In this document: positions 1,666 through 36,656 of the stretch, in pieces
Layout: each line of letters starts with the position of its first letter
Position numbering within the stretch: the stretch's first letter is position 1
Translations under genes and position numbers: made by a program
NCBI GenBank assembly: GCA_001783715.1
Contig: MFNF01000042.1
Location: 1-64,000 of the forward strand
Direction of reading: 5' to 3'
Length of the DNA stretch: 64,000 nt
Source of the DNA: Candidatus Lambdaproteobacteria bacterium RIFOXYD2_FULL_56_26
GTDB taxonomy: Bacteria; SAR324; XYD2-FULL-50-16
The notes under the pieces: model-generated
Seen by the model: the letters and a program-made list of their open reading frames with translations, nothing else
Told to the model about the DNA's origin: nothing
Databases searched by the model: none

Positions 1666-2445
1666 CTACCTCCAATAAACCCACACCTTTCCGTCTTTGT
1701 CGCTGGTGAAGATGTAGAGGATCTCGCCGTTGATGGCTTTTTCGTATTGTTTTTGCACTTCCGGGGCGGGGATGTGGTTTTCCGATTGGGAATCTGCCGC
1801 CTGTTGTTCGTCGGCGTAGGTTTTGATGGAGAACTTGGTCACCGCTTCCCCTTCTTTTTCCACTCCGGTCACTTCCAGTTTGGAGGTCTTGCCGTCTTGC
1901 CGCTTGGTTTGAACGATCAGGCCTTCCTTGACCAGGGCCTTTTGGCTGTCCTTTTTTTCCGGGCCAAAGGCTGCTTCGGCCTCAAAGGTGCCGCTGGTGC
2001 TGAAGGTCACGTTTTCGGTGTCCCCTTTGGGCCAAGCCAGGGAGTAGCCCTCGCCGCCCCAGGTGAACTCGGTGGTTTCGCCCCGTTGGCGCAGGTTGAA
2101 CTGGATTCCCTGGATGCGGATGATCGGGAATTTTTCCTTGGGGTGCATTTTTTCGTATTCCACGGTCAGGGTGTCCTTACCGCTGACCACCTGCTTGTAG
2201 GACTGGGGGACCAACAGGACCTTTTTAGGGCCTTCGGCAATCGGTTGGTTTTTGGAGTTTGCCGGAACGGCGGCATGGTCGGAGGTGATTTCCCCTTCTG
2301 CCGCTCCTGGGTCACTGCCGTTCTTGGCGGCGGCGGCTTTGGGGGCCGGTTCGGCCTTGGTTGCCTTCTTGGGGGTTTCGGCGGCGTAAACTGCCGGGGC
2401 AAAGGCCAACAGCAAGGCCAAAATCCAGGTTGTCCGTGACTTCAT
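1666..2445 (-). CDS. Exported hypothetical protein
   Basis: A 259-residue protein with a clear Sec signal peptide (ILALLLAFAPAVYA, cleavage near residue 21). A Lys/Ala/Pro-rich low-complexity stretch runs to about residue 70, followed by a beta-rich domain with alternating polar and hydrophobic strands ending in GKVWVYWR. I do not recognise the family. It starts 10 bases after the stop of the phosphohexomutase and is probably co-transcribed with it. Its G+C matches the chromosome, unlike the receiver gene 48 bases further on, so the composition boundary falls between them. It is likely periplasmic or outer-membrane associated. Confidence 0.72.
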   Translation of the reverse strand: MKSRTTWILALLLAFAPAVYAAETPKKATKAEPAPKAAAAKNGSDPGAAEGEITSDHAAVPANSKNQPIAEGPKKVLLVPQSYKQVVSGKDTLTVEYEKMHPKEKFPIIRIQGIQFNLRQRGETTEFTWGGEGYSLAWPKGDTENVTFSTSGTFEAEAAFGPEKKDSQKALVKEGLIVQTKRQDGKTSKLEVTGVEKEGEAVTKFSIKTYADEQQAADSQSENHIPAPEVQKQYEKAINGEILYIFTSDKDGKVWVYWR

Positions 2446-2455
2446 CTTGTCTCCA

Positions 2456-4453
2456 TCAAAGTTTGGGATCGCTTCCTTTTAACAAGGCCTTGCCCTTTTG
2501 AGCAATCACGAATCCATCTTGGCTCCGTTCAATCAGCCCCTGCTTGGCCTCCATTTCCTTTAGGACCCGTTCCACCGGAAGCCCCGACGCAGGGAGCGAT
2601 TTGGGGTCTTGCCCTTGGGCAATGGCGGCCAGAAGCCTGGCTTCCAGCTGGGCCAAAGGGTTGGCGGAGTTTTTGAGGCCCCGGAGCAAAAGGAGGTGTA
2701 AGGCCTGGGCCAATTGGCCCAGCTTTTGGGTCCCCGAGAGTGGCCCCCGCAGGTACAAGGCGGACTTGTCCTCGGTCCCCGAGTTGCGGACAAAAACCGC
2801 TCCGTAGGGGGTACCGTTTTCCGAAAGGTGGCAAAAGAGCAGGCTCGGCTCTTCTCCGAAGGCCTGGAATTGGCCGGTAAAGCCTTCGCCCAGGCAGCTG
2901 GGCAAGAGGGAGAGGATTTGGGCCGAAAGAGTCTCTCGGAAGGCCTGCCCAGGTTCCAGCCGGGACTTGTCCACATAATAGACGTAAAAGGTTTCTTTCA
3001 TCCCCCCGGCAAAGGGGTGGGCCAGGGTTTGGCCGTCCTTGACCTTGGCCATGGCGGCCAGGCTGTTGAGCCCCGCCTTGAGGCCGTTGCCCGCAAAACC
3101 GGGGAAGGGGCGGTGGAGCCAAAAGGGGCTCAAGGCATGGCCCGATTCTTCCAGGCCCAAGGCAAAGTCCAAGGGGCCACTGGGGGTTTGCGGCCCCTGG
3201 GCCAAGGCGGCTTCAAACCGAACGGTCAGGTCCAAGGCCGAAGCGGCAGGGTTCTGCTGCCAAGCTTCCAGGTAATCCCAAAGCTCTTGGTTTTTGGTCC
3301 CCAAGGCCAAACGGGAACGGAGCACCGAGGCCACCGCCCGGACCAGCAACCACTTGTCCCCCACCCCGGTCAGGGTTTCCTGGAACCCCAGGGCCTTAAC
3401 CGCTTGGCCCAAGAGCAGGTCGCTTTCCACGGTAAAGGCGAAGCTGCGGCCCCCTGCCCCTTGGGTCTGGGCAAGATATTGGCCCAGGTGGAAGCCCAGT
3501 AGGTCCCCGGAGCTGACCCAGGCCTTTTGGCTTTTGGGGTCGTAGTCGAGCCGGTAACAACGGTCGCCGTCCCCATCAAAGGCCAGACCTACCAACCGGA
3601 CCGATCCGTCCCAGATTTCTGACCGCCCGGTTTGGGCAAAAAATTCGGCCAAAAAACGGTTGGCCGGATACCGCCGGGCCAAGTCGTTTTGGGTAATCGA
3701 TTCTTGGCCTTCCAGGTCGGTGACCCCGCAGTTTTGGTTGATCGGTCCTTCCAGGTTGGTGAGAATCAATTCCCTGAGCCCTAACCCTCCAAGCAAAGGT
3801 TCCACCACCGAGGCCGCCGCCCCCTTGGAGGCATCGATCACCAAAAGATGGTCCTTCAGGTCCATCCCCGCCGTGATCCAGCTGTTTTTTGGGTCCAAGC
3901 TGGATTCCACAAAAAAGGCCCAGGCCTCTTCATGGACCCCGATCATCTCCCCTTGGGGCTCAATCCGGCTGAAGTCCAGGTCCTTGTAGGCATAAAGCTT
4001 GGTGGTCAGCCTTTGGTCGTCTTGGGGCAGGAACTTGAGCCCAAAGCCGGGCAAAAACAATTTGATCCCGTTCTGGTCGGCCGGGTTGTGGCTGGCGGTC
4101 AACATGGCTCCCGCCCGGCAGCCTTTTTCCATCATGTACAACGGCACCGCCGGGGTGGGCAAAATCCCCAGGCCCAAAACGGTCAGCCCCGCTTTGCGCA
4201 GGCCCTGGACAAAGGCGGAATCAAACCGCCCCGCCTCGTCCCGGCCATCCCAGCCGACCGCCACCTTGTCCCCCTGCCGGGCCAAGCGGGTCTCCAACAG
4301 CAGTTGGCCAAAGGCGTAGCCATAAAGCTCAAAAAAGGCGGGGGTCAAAAACCCCTCTTCCACAAAGGTGGCCACCGGGTCCTTGGAGCCCAATTCGGCT
4401 TTGACCCGGCCCCGAACGCCATCGGTGCCCTGCAAGCGGAGTAGATTGGTCAT
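2456..4453 (-). CDS. Phosphoglucomutase/phosphomannomutase family (alpha-D-phosphohexomutase)
   Basis: Interconverts hexose 1- and 6-phosphates in the cytoplasm. The four-domain family signatures are present in order: LQGTDGVRGR near the N-terminus, the phosphoserine loop LTASHNPADQNGIK, the metal loop FDGDGDRC, the sugar-binding EESGHA, and the phosphate-binding RNSGTEDKSALYLRG. I chose ATG 4453 (MTNLLRLQG) because AGGA lies just upstream and the family normally begins at this motif; ATGs at 4471 and 4531 are alternatives. At about 665 residues it is longer than the usual 450-550. It carries an insertion after the metal domain (around GTKNQELWDYLEAW) and a roughly 60-residue helical C-terminal extension. 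Sugar specificity cannot be decided. Divergent from trpS. Confidence 0.9.
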   Translation of the reverse strand: MTNLLRLQGTDGVRGRVKAELGSKDPVATFVEEGFLTPAFFELYGYAFGQLLLETRLARQGDKVAVGWDGRDEAGRFDSAFVQGLRKAGLTVLGLGILPTPAVPLYMMEKGCRAGAMLTASHNPADQNGIKLFLPGFGLKFLPQDDQRLTTKLYAYKDLDFSRIEPQGEMIGVHEEAWAFFVESSLDPKNSWITAGMDLKDHLLVIDASKGAAASVVEPLLGGLGLRELILTNLEGPINQNCGVTDLEGQESITQNDLARRYPANRFLAEFFAQTGRSEIWDGSVRLVGLAFDGDGDRCYRLDYDPKSQKAWVSSGDLLGFHLGQYLAQTQGAGGRSFAFTVESDLLLGQAVKALGFQETLTGVGDKWLLVRAVASVLRSRLALGTKNQELWDYLEAWQQNPAASALDLTVRFEAALAQGPQTPSGPLDFALGLEESGHALSPFWLHRPFPGFAGNGLKAGLNSLAAMAKVKDGQTLAHPFAGGMKETFYVYYVDKSRLEPGQAFRETLSAQILSLLPSCLGEGFTGQFQAFGEEPSLLFCHLSENGTPYGAVFVRNSGTEDKSALYLRGPLSGTQKLGQLAQALHLLLLRGLKNSANPLAQLEARLLAAIAQGQDPKSLPASGLPVERVLKEMEAKQGLIERSQDGFVIAQKGKALLKGSDPKL

Positions 4454-34089: not shown

Positions 34090-34506
34090 ATGTTTGCCAA
34101 CCTGAACCAATTGATCGACCAGATTCTTGCCGGCCAGCCGAAGTCCCAGCCCCAAAGCCAGCAACAGTGGCGGACTGCTCCGGCCTCACCCCAGCCTCGG
34201 GTCAACCTCTTTGAAGAGGAACACCAAGTGACCCTGACCACCGAACTGCCGGGCTTTAAAAAGGCGGATCTGAAGCTTGAGGTCAAAGGCAACCGGTTCC
34301 GGTTTTCCGCTGCCCCGGTCACCGAGCCCAAGGAGGCGAACCAATATTACCACCGGGAACGGGCCTTGGCTCCTTTTGACCGAGAACTGGTGTTTGCCTT
34401 TCGGATCGACCCGGAGAAGGTCAACGCTTCCTTTGAAAACGGGGTTTTGACCGTGGTGCTTCCCGCCTTGGCTGAAGACCTGCCCCGGACCGTGGCTTTG
34501 TCCTAA
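34090..34506 (+). CDS. Small heat-shock protein (Hsp20 family) 1
   Basis: A 138-aa ATP-independent holdase. A Gln/Ser/Pro-rich N-terminal arm precedes the alpha-crystallin domain (PRVNLFEEEHQVTLTTELPGFKKADLKLEVKGNRFRF), which ends with the conserved FENGVLTVVLPAL. The usual C-terminal I-x-I motif is replaced by TVALS, so oligomerisation may depend on its partner. It is followed 54 bases later by a second Hsp20 gene. Confidence 0.93.
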   Translation: MFANLNQLIDQILAGQPKSQPQSQQQWRTAPASPQPRVNLFEEEHQVTLTTELPGFKKADLKLEVKGNRFRFSAAPVTEPKEANQYYHRERALAPFDRELVFAFRIDPEKVNASFENGVLTVVLPALAEDLPRTVALS

Positions 34507-34560: not shown

Positions 34561-34884
34561 ATGAACGGAACCACTTACCTGCCCAAAACCGACATCCTGC
34601 AAACCGCCGAAGGCTTTGAGCTTTGGATGGACCTGCCGGGGGTGGGCAAAAAAGACTTGGCGGTCAGCGTCAAAAAAGACCAATTGGAGATCTACGGCAA
34701 AGTCCGGCCCCAGGAGCGGAAGGGCTTGCGCTTTGAGTACCCGGTGGGCGATTTTGCCCGGACCTTTGTGATCTCTTCGGAAATCGACCAGGAGGCCATT
34801 TCGGCCCACTTGGAAGACGGGGTGCTGCGGCTGCGGTTACCCAAAGCCAAGTCTGCCCTGCCCTTGGAAATTACGGTGCATTGA
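34561..34884 (+). CDS. Small heat-shock protein (Hsp20 family) 2
   Basis: A 107-aa protein, almost only the alpha-crystallin domain: PKTDILQTAEGFELWMDLPGVGKKDLAVSVKKDQLEI, FARTFVISSEIDQEAISAHLEDGVLRLRLPKA, ending LEITVH where an I-x-V element is retained. The short N-terminus suggests it forms hetero-oligomers with Hsp20-1. The two are a tandem pair probably made from one transcript. Confidence 0.93.
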   Translation: MNGTTYLPKTDILQTAEGFELWMDLPGVGKKDLAVSVKKDQLEIYGKVRPQERKGLRFEYPVGDFARTFVISSEIDQEAISAHLEDGVLRLRLPKAKSALPLEITVH

Positions 34885-34947: not shown

Positions 34948-35742
34948 ATGAAATATTTGGTCCAATCCCTCCTGACCCGCCTGTTTATGATCCCTTGGGT
35001 CCAACGTCGTTGGAGCCGTAGTTTTATTGCCCTCCAGCCGGACCGGAGGCCTTTCGTTTTACCCGCCCACCCTCTTGCCCAAACCAAAATCGCTTTGCTC
35101 ACCACCGGCGGGGTGCACCTAGCCCATGAGCCGGGCTTTGACATGGAAAACCCCCAGGGAGACGGAAGCTTCCGCTCCTTCCCTTGGGAGACTGACCGGG
35201 AAGCCTTGACCCTCACCCATAAATATTATGACAGCCGAGCCGCCCAAAAGGACCTGGGGGTGATTCTGCCGATCCGGCCCCTCCAGGCAGCCTTGGAACA
35301 AGGGAAAATCGGCAGGGCCGGGAGTAAGGTTTACAGCTTTATGGGCCATTTGTCGGGAGAACAGTTGGAGCGGGCCTTAAAATCGTCGGTGCCCCAGGTG
35401 ATCCGGGAGCTGAAGGCCGAGGGGGTGGAAGTCTGCTTTCTCACCCCGGCCTGAGGGACCTGCAATCAGACGGTCGGTCTGATCCAAACGGAACTGGAAG
35501 CGGCGGGCCTGAGCAGGGTGAGCCTCTCGCTGTCCTTGGAGATCACTACCCCGGTGGCCCCGCCTCGAGCTTTGGTGCTCCATTATCCCTTTGGCCACCC
35601 TTTGGGGGAGGTCGGGAATCTGGCCCAGCAGGAGCAGATTTTTTGGGATGCCTTGGGCCTGTTGGAAGAACCGGAAGGACCGGTTTTGGTGGAAAGCCCT
35701 TATCTTTGGCGAAGGACCCTGTTCCCCTTAAAACAAACATGA
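34948..35742 (+). CDS. GrdB-family selenoprotein (glycine/betaine/sarcosine/proline reductase B-like) with in-frame Sec TGA
   Basis: The frame runs 264 residues through one in-frame TGA (35452-35454, codon 169) read as selenocysteine. Around it the protein reads CFLTPA-U-GTC-NQTVGLIQ, a redox U-x-x-C site aligned with the selenoprotein B family. Upstream hallmarks are LLTTGGVHLAHEPGFDME, THKYYDSRAAQKDLGVILPI and YSFMGHLSG. After the TGA the frame continues without interruption (RALVLHYPFGHPLGE) to a stop at 35740. A SECIS-like hairpin starts 10 bases after the TGA. Elsewhere in the window TGA is an ordinary stop, so recoding must be local. The last bases overlap msrP by ATGA. It is probably a thiol/selenol oxidoreductase; the substrate is unknown. 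A SelA/SelB/SelC system elsewhere in the genome is predicted. Confidence 0.9.
35452..35483 (+). promoter_or_regulatory. Selenocysteine TGA codon and SECIS-like hairpin
   Basis: Downstream of TGA 35452-35454, the mRNA can form ATCAGAC-GGTCG-GTCTGAT (35465-35483): a perfect 7-bp stem with a 5-base loop containing GGU. The loop GGU begins 17 bases after the TGA. Bacterial SECIS elements are short stems just after the UGA with a GU in the apical loop (as in E. coli fdhF), recognised by SelB. The coding sequence is maintained through it. Confidence 0.8.
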
Positions 35743-36656
35743 AACTTCTTTCCAAACCCAGTTGGCAGTTGCCCGAATCCGCAGTCACCGAGGAGCAGGT
35801 TTTTGTGAGCCGCCGGGCGCTGGTCAAGGGGCTGGGCTTAGCTTTGGCTTGGCCTGGCTTGAGCCCCATGCAGGCCTGGGCAGCCAAGTTCGGCTCGGAA
35901 CTGACCCCTTCTAAGGAAGAGCTGGTCACCAGTTACAACAATTTTTACGAATTCAGCACCGACAAGGGGGAGGTCAGGCCCCTGGCCCAAGGGGTGCAGC
36001 TCGGGCCTTGGGAGCTGGAGATCGGCGGTTTGGTGGAAAAGCCGCTGCGCCTGGACACCCAAAAACTGGCCCAGTTGTTTGGAGAAGAGGAGCGGATCTA
36101 CCGGTTTCGGTGTGTGGAAGCCTGGGCGGCAGTGGTGCCCTGGCGGGGCGTTGGGCTCAAAAAGCTGGTGGAAATGGCTCGGCCCCTTTCGGGGGCCAAG
36201 TACGTCAGGTTTGTGGCCCACATGGACCCGAAAGTGATGCCCGGTCTGGCTTCGGGCCACTTTCCTTGGCCATACTCCGAAGGGTTGCGGATCGATGAGG
36301 CGACCCACGAACTGGCCTTTTTGGCCACCGGGATTTACGGCAAGCCCCTGCCCACCCAAAATGGAGCCCCGGTTCGGCTGGTGGTGCCTTGGAAGTATGG
36401 GTTCAAGTCGATCAAGTCGATCCGGTCCATCGAGTTCACTGCCACCCAGCCCCGGACCCTCTGGAACGATGTTGGCCCGGCGGAATACGGCTTTTATGCC
36501 AACGTCAACCCCGAGGTGGACCATCCCCGTTGGTCCCAGGCGACCGAAAAGCTCTTGGGCTCTTGGGTCCAGCGGCAACCGACCCGGTTGTTCAACGGCT
36601 ATGGCGAGCAGGTGGCTTCTTTGTACCAAGGCCTGGACTTGAAGCGGAACTATTGA
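35739..36656 (+). CDS. msrP: Protein-methionine-sulfoxide reductase catalytic subunit MsrP
   Basis: A 305-aa periplasmic molybdoenzyme reducing Met-sulfoxide in proteins. A twin-arginine-like signal (VSRRALVKGLGLALAWPGL, residues 24-42) precedes a sulfite-oxidase fold. The molybdenum Cys is in YRFRCVEAWAAVVPWRGV. Other family motifs are VRFVAHMDPKVMPG and RLVVPWKYGFKSIKSIRSIEF. ATG 35739 overlaps the selenoprotein stop; 2 bases separate it from msrQ. Confidence 0.95.
   Translation: MKLLSKPSWQLPESAVTEEQVFVSRRALVKGLGLALAWPGLSPMQAWAAKFGSELTPSKEELVTSYNNFYEFSTDKGEVRPLAQGVQLGPWELEIGGLVEKPLRLDTQKLAQLFGEEERIYRFRCVEAWAAVVPWRGVGLKKLVEMARPLSGAKYVRFVAHMDPKVMPGLASGHFPWPYSEGLRIDEATHELAFLATGIYGKPLPTQNGAPVRLVVPWKYGFKSIKSIRSIEFTATQPRTLWNDVGPAEYGFYANVNPEVDHPRWSQATEKLLGSWVQRQPTRLFNGYGEQVASLYQGLDLKRNY

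Follow-up and report, generated by a model that had tools for sequence, protein, structure and literature searches.

The window, by which we mean the whole 64,000-nt stretch of DNA from Candidatus Lambdaproteobacteria bacterium RIFOXYD2_FULL_56_26 that was analysed, contains a single forward-strand reading frame that runs from an ATG at 34948 to a TGA stop at 35740–35742 and comprises 264 codons, including one internal TGA (translated with TGA as selenocysteine, U). The features of this locus and its neighbourhood are as follows.

34090..34506, + strand: gene for an Hsp20 family small heat-shock protein (PF00011, 54 bits), upstream of the PrdB-like gene and a conserved neighbour in L011/L050, one and the same related assembly
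34561..34884, + strand: second Hsp20 family gene (PF00011, 66.2 bits), directly upstream and likewise a conserved neighbour in L011/L050
34948..35742, + strand: PrdB-like selenoprotein gene (translation with TGA as U; PF07355 and TIGR04483 matches; homologues in 45 of 58 related genomes; 48-row alignment; fold model with pLDDT 93.9)
35452..35454, + strand: UGA read as selenocysteine (Sec169), the first residue of a U-x-x-C motif, UGTC (TGA at 73 of 73 distinct homologous sites; aligned with a TGA in Peptoclostridium PrdB and a Cys in Enterococcus PrdB)
35465..35483, + strand: predicted bacterial SECIS hairpin (stem 35465–35471 with 35477–35483, loop GGUCG at 35472–35476; minimum-free-energy (MFE) fold, covariation and frozen codons)
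35739..36656, + strand: msrP, molybdopterin methionine sulfoxide reductase (NF003767, 413.8 bits against a cut-off of 207), with an ATG start that overlaps the selenoprotein stop codon
36659..37255, + strand: gene for an msrQ-like heme membrane subunit (NF003831, 79.9 bits, below the cut-off of 130; PF01794 above cut-off)

Standard ORF calling reports the PrdB-like gene as a 168-aa ORF (34948–35454) and a separate 74-aa ORF with a GTG start (35518–35742), which reproduces the truncated protein and second ORF that an earlier note on this DNA had expected of ordinary annotation. That note had proposed a continuous 264-codon gene split by an in-frame TGA at a catalytic U-x-x-C site, and translation of the frame confirmed both the split at 35452–35454 and the motif U-G-T-C at this position. 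Its claim that the two halves belong to the same family was also borne out, with TIGR04483 scores of 70.6 bits for the N-terminal half, 20.1 bits (E 3.4e-4) for the C-terminal half and 110.4 bits for the joined protein; the match crosses the TGA, and the joined protein outscores either half. The segment 34948–35742 is almost certainly a selenoprotein gene, and it provides a clean example of a gene split by ordinary ORF calling.

Of the 58 related genomes, 45 carry a homologue. A scan of genome contigs, which gave no relative with a single-sequence query, brought up relatives with an alignment query; of those that have a name, Candidatus Lambdaproteobacteria RIFOXYD2_FULL_50_16 (L050) is the nearest to carry the gene. 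Many SAR324 MAGs are among the same-class carriers, in keeping with a place for the window in the SAR324/Lambdaproteobacteria group. Every related-genome match that spans the site has TGA, the sole match without it being a fragment that ends at residue 137, and in the 30 related-genome matches read base by base the TGA stands at the aligned place in all. To this can be added the distinct 51-nt sites from two genome collections (73 of 73 with TGA), which come from SAR324, Methylomirabilota, Thermodesulfobacteriota, Acidobacteriota, Nitrospirota, Neomarinimicrobiota and others; distinct sites were counted because identical genomes occur in both collections. Since none of the search patterns included the Sec codon, the all-TGA result is no selection effect. 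After the TGA, homologous sites read G/P/T-x-C-[NH]-Q-[TA]-V-G-L, and the U-x-x-C motif is invariant across the 48 homologues of the 48-row alignment. In canonical PrdB the codon at the aligned site is TGA in Peptoclostridium and encodes Cys in Enterococcus, and an alphaproteobacterial homologue has Cys at the Sec site (CPIC). Judged from these alignments, Sec and Cys at the aligned site are the usual pair of a selenoprotein family.

The 168-residue ORF given by the standard caller is exactly the product that would be expected if the TGA were a real stop, or the outcome of a pseudogene or a sequencing error, with the remainder of the gene decaying. Conservation led us to reject this explanation, which we consider vanishingly improbable: the TGA recurs at 73 distinct sites in several phyla, the aligned codon of true PrdB stands for Sec or Cys, and homology continues beyond the TGA with conserved blocks such as YPFGH, so that the C-terminal similarity for which the earlier note had asked homologues to be checked is present.

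The genome also encodes the means of inserting selenocysteine. Within its own assembly (3.08 Mb, 97% complete) we found SelA (421.8 bits), SelB (279 bits, above cut-off), SelD (359.9 bits) and a tRNA-Sec with anticodon UCA (61 bits), that is, the complete set of machinery whose absence the earlier note had named as a ground for abandoning a selenoprotein. The SelD gene itself (G000:C57:65557-66486, - strand, L048) has its own in-frame TGA at the active-site position, where it reads CGUAAK, and UGA recoding is thus used elsewhere in the genome. A single gene in which homology carries on past an in-frame TGA would look the same under an altered genetic code in which TGA is generally a sense codon. 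TGA, however, terminates both the PrdB-like gene and msrP, and its role as a normal stop in neighbouring genes, together with the presence of tRNA-Sec(UCA), SelA, SelB and SelD and the covariation of the hairpin described below, led us to reject an altered code, to which we assign a negligible probability.

The hairpin downstream of the UGA (AUCAGAC-GGUCG-GUCUGAU) has a 7-bp stem that starts 10 nt after the UGA and a loop that starts 17 nt after it, in agreement with the earlier description of a stem-loop with GGU in its loop 10 bases past the TGA. Six of the seven stem pairs are present in the MFE fold. The folding energy is not exceptional against shuffled sequences (z = -0.58, 62-nt window), and the case for the hairpin therefore rests on conservation and covariation. 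In the same-class set (n = 25 sequences), standard pairs make up 98% of the pair cells, and two-sided changes occur at two pairs; in the cross-phylum set (n = 38), 98% of cells are paired and three pairs show two-sided changes (UA/CG/UG, GC/AU/GU and AU/GC). The latter set contains 26 two-sided cells and its covariation score was reached by 0 of 500 shuffles, counts of a kind that kinship among the sequences inflates; sliding the partner strand by one base lowers pairing to 45% or less. Some of the changes can be followed through the code: where CAG...CTG has become CAA...TTG, neither side of the hairpin changes its amino acid, and in Methylomirabilota the A to G change that turns Thr into Ala comes with a synonymous GGT to GGC change, so that the pair is kept. 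Mean codon entropy is 0.48 bits inside the hairpin, compared with 1.40 bits for 66 conserved positions elsewhere (p = 0.0003).

As in SelB-dependent bacterial SECIS elements, the stem-loop directly follows the UGA and has G in its first two loop positions, and its distance of 17 nt falls within the 16–37 nt from UGA to loop in the published bSECIS model (PMC13188914); the comparison brought up no notable difference. The element, located 3' of the UGA, conserved and with a G in its apical loop, has the properties of a bSECIS and is a predicted SelB site. With SelB and its Sec-tRNA bound to this hairpin just 3' of the UGA at 35452, residue 169 would be incorporated as selenocysteine, and the finished protein would have 264 residues and the redox motif U-G-T-C.

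The family of this protein required a closer definition than "GrdB-family selenoprotein", the name under which the gene had been introduced. The selenoprotein part of that name is supported by the machinery, the C-terminal similarity and the covarying hairpin; the GrdB part holds only as far as PF07355 membership, and the nearest curated model is PrdB. The match to Pfam PF07355 (GRDB family) scores 27.7 bits against a gathering cut-off of 22 and covers only profile positions 215–345 of 347, the C-terminal part. Among NCBIfam models the best was PrdB (TIGR04483, 110.4 bits), followed by GrdH, TIGR01918 and GrdB, all below their cut-offs: 110.4 versus 300 bits for the PrdB equivalog, and 37.9 versus 602.2 and 47.5 versus 65.45 bits for the GrdB models TIGR01917 and TIGR01918. 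In a tree made by a quick method and rooted at the midpoint, the window protein and most homologues share a branch that does not include the two canonical PrdB rows (SH-aLRT 92). Scores that are best for PrdB yet below its cut-off, together with this tree, make the protein PrdB-like; they do not demonstrate a PrdB, nor do they make it a GrdB. With the D-proline reductase PrdB of Clostridia and relatives it has the Sec/Cys site in common at 28–29% identity, and it differs by an extra N-terminal region and a score far under the equivalog cut-off. Its setting differs too, as prdC and prdA lie close to prdB in Enterococcus gilvus whereas the window protein has neither PrdA nor PrdC nearby. To GrdB, the selenoprotein B of glycine/sarcosine/betaine reductase (PF07355, TIGR01918), it is linked by the above-cut-off C-terminal PF07355 match, although the match is weaker than that to PrdB, and GrdA and GrdE were undetected in the window genome.

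In their own enzymes, PrdB and GrdB are paired with a pyruvoyl-type partner (PrdA and GrdE, respectively; PF09338), to which glycine reductase adds GrdA (see also PMC13188914). In the genome of the window, PF09338 gave no match, while the same search finds a partner in G047 and G066, which are the single positives among 56 related genomes and among 15 genomes of other homologues, respectively; in G047 the partner directly adjoins the homologue of the window protein. A partner that has diverged further could be missed by this model. GrdA (PF04723) likewise had no match in the own genome in a search run without a positive control, and no prd or grd genes adjoin the window gene. With no detectable PrdA/GrdE or GrdA, the protein is best described as a solitary PrdB-like selenoprotein and should not be taken for a glycine reductase component. 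From the distribution of PF09338 across the searched genomes, this PrdB-like selenoprotein would normally occur alone, without a partner subunit. It might nonetheless be a true subunit (PrdB/GrdB) of a D-proline or glycine reductase that works with a partner, given that it has the Pfam family and the U/C-x-x-C site in common with real PrdB. We consider this very unlikely in view of the shortfall against both the PrdB equivalog and GrdB subfamily models, the placement of the canonical PrdB rows outside the window's branch (92% SH-aLRT, with the midpoint root and quick method stated above), the lack of detectable PF09338 and GrdA in the own genome and the absence of adjacent prd or grd genes.

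With the pyruvoyl PrdA or GrdE/GrdA partner missing, we infer that D-proline and glycine are not reduced. The solitary PrdB-like protein would most likely act instead as a stand-alone selenol-thiol oxidoreductase in which a selenenyl-sulfide links Sec169 to Cys172, as the U-x-x-C motif and its invariance suggest. We hold with high confidence the reading as a whole, namely a UGA-recoded, solitary PrdB-like selenoprotein that is likely a stand-alone selenol-thiol oxidoreductase; the more specific function of a solo redox protein with a role in redox or oxidative-damage repair is a tentative assignment, with a probability a little short of even. Because this selenoprotein generally lacks a catalytic partner, the name "proline reductase PrdB" probably misstates its function. 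The AlphaFold2 model of the protein (pLDDT 93.9, pTM 0.92) had no Foldseek match in the PDB at E <= 0.001, and a sequence-profile search of the PDB gave no significant match (best E 0.045), so that the fold gives no functional lead and no structural analogue for the mechanism. Going by this model, the GrdB/PrdB domain concerned appears to be without a solved structure.

In this lineage the gene sits among small heat-shock genes and those of MsrP/MsrQ, a setting suggestive of a part in redox or oxidative-damage repair. The order hsp20-hsp20-prdB-like-msrP-msrQ occurs in the window and in L050/L011 (one assembly), thus in two genomes only. An ATGA overlap at 35739–35742 joins the stop of the selenoprotein gene to the start of msrP and is present in L050 too. 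The window msrP has no Shine-Dalgarno sequence (best duplex +1.9 kcal/mol versus -9.3 to -1.9 in eight of nine other genes), and L050 msrP has a weak one. Given the overlap and the lack of its own Shine-Dalgarno sequence, ribosomes might reach msrP mainly via read-through of the UGA. Translation of msrP could then be gated by selenium, with the selenoprotein acting in the same methionine-sulfoxide repair pathway, an arrangement that we regard as unlikely; if it were true, the amount of MsrP available to repair methionine sulfoxide would depend on selenium supply. A literature search that paired MsrP with selenocysteine, and PrdB with PrdA, returned nothing on a selenoprotein-msrP link.

The neighbours of homologues vary across lineages, with arsenosugar genes in Methylomirabilota and homologues of yggS, ispG and dgt in marine SAR324 (the latter assigned by eye), and no single pathway is fixed by gene context. 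The Methylomirabilota neighbourhoods (L055, L056 and L057), in which ArsS, an ArsM fusion and a TIGR04283 glycosyltransferase adjoin the homologues, raise the prospect of a role in arsenic or organometal chemistry, and ArsS is encoded in the genome of the window too, on a different contig from the window (G000:C57:56933-57820, the contig of selD and ~8 kb from it). Yet ArsS scores above cut-off in 13 of 56 related genomes versus 45 of 58 for the PrdB-like gene, two genomes (G001 and G005) have ArsS without the PrdB-like gene, and the window gene is not near ArsS. A general arsenosugar linkage is therefore not upheld by co-occurrence across relatives, and we consider an arsenic or organometal role improbable. 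In the NC10 bacterium of L055, one ORF (1942-3846) just upstream of the PrdB-like selenoprotein gene combines a radical SAM and an ArsM-like methyltransferase.

Sec-containing members of this family are already known from marine metagenome surveys of 2005 and 2008, as given in the passages of those papers on PrdB, and the window gene is an added member. In the Sargasso Sea set, Sec-containing PrdB is listed third by abundance among previously known selenoprotein families with 42 sequences (PMC1088965), and the corresponding passage on the GOS data places PrdB among the most abundant families, with 235 Sec and 110 Cys forms (PMC2398784). The marine proteins resemble that of the window in their PF07355 family, U-x-x-C motif, UGA-encoded Sec and abundance; unlike in our reading, they are named D-proline reductase, and PrdA is not mentioned in the passages concerned (PMC1088965, PMC2398784). 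With the groups matched by description, the window protein very probably belongs to the marine Sec-PrdB group of those passages. We found no report in the open-access literature of the near-constant absence of the partner or of the msrP ATGA overlap, and the lack of a PDB fold match is apparently likewise unreported. One of the more abundant marine selenoproteins would thus have a name and a gene context that do not match, and a predicted fold unmatched among solved structures.

Phages yielded one weak match. The Methylomirabilota MAG MohnsGC08_bin020 carries two PrdB-like selenoprotein genes (L054 and L066).
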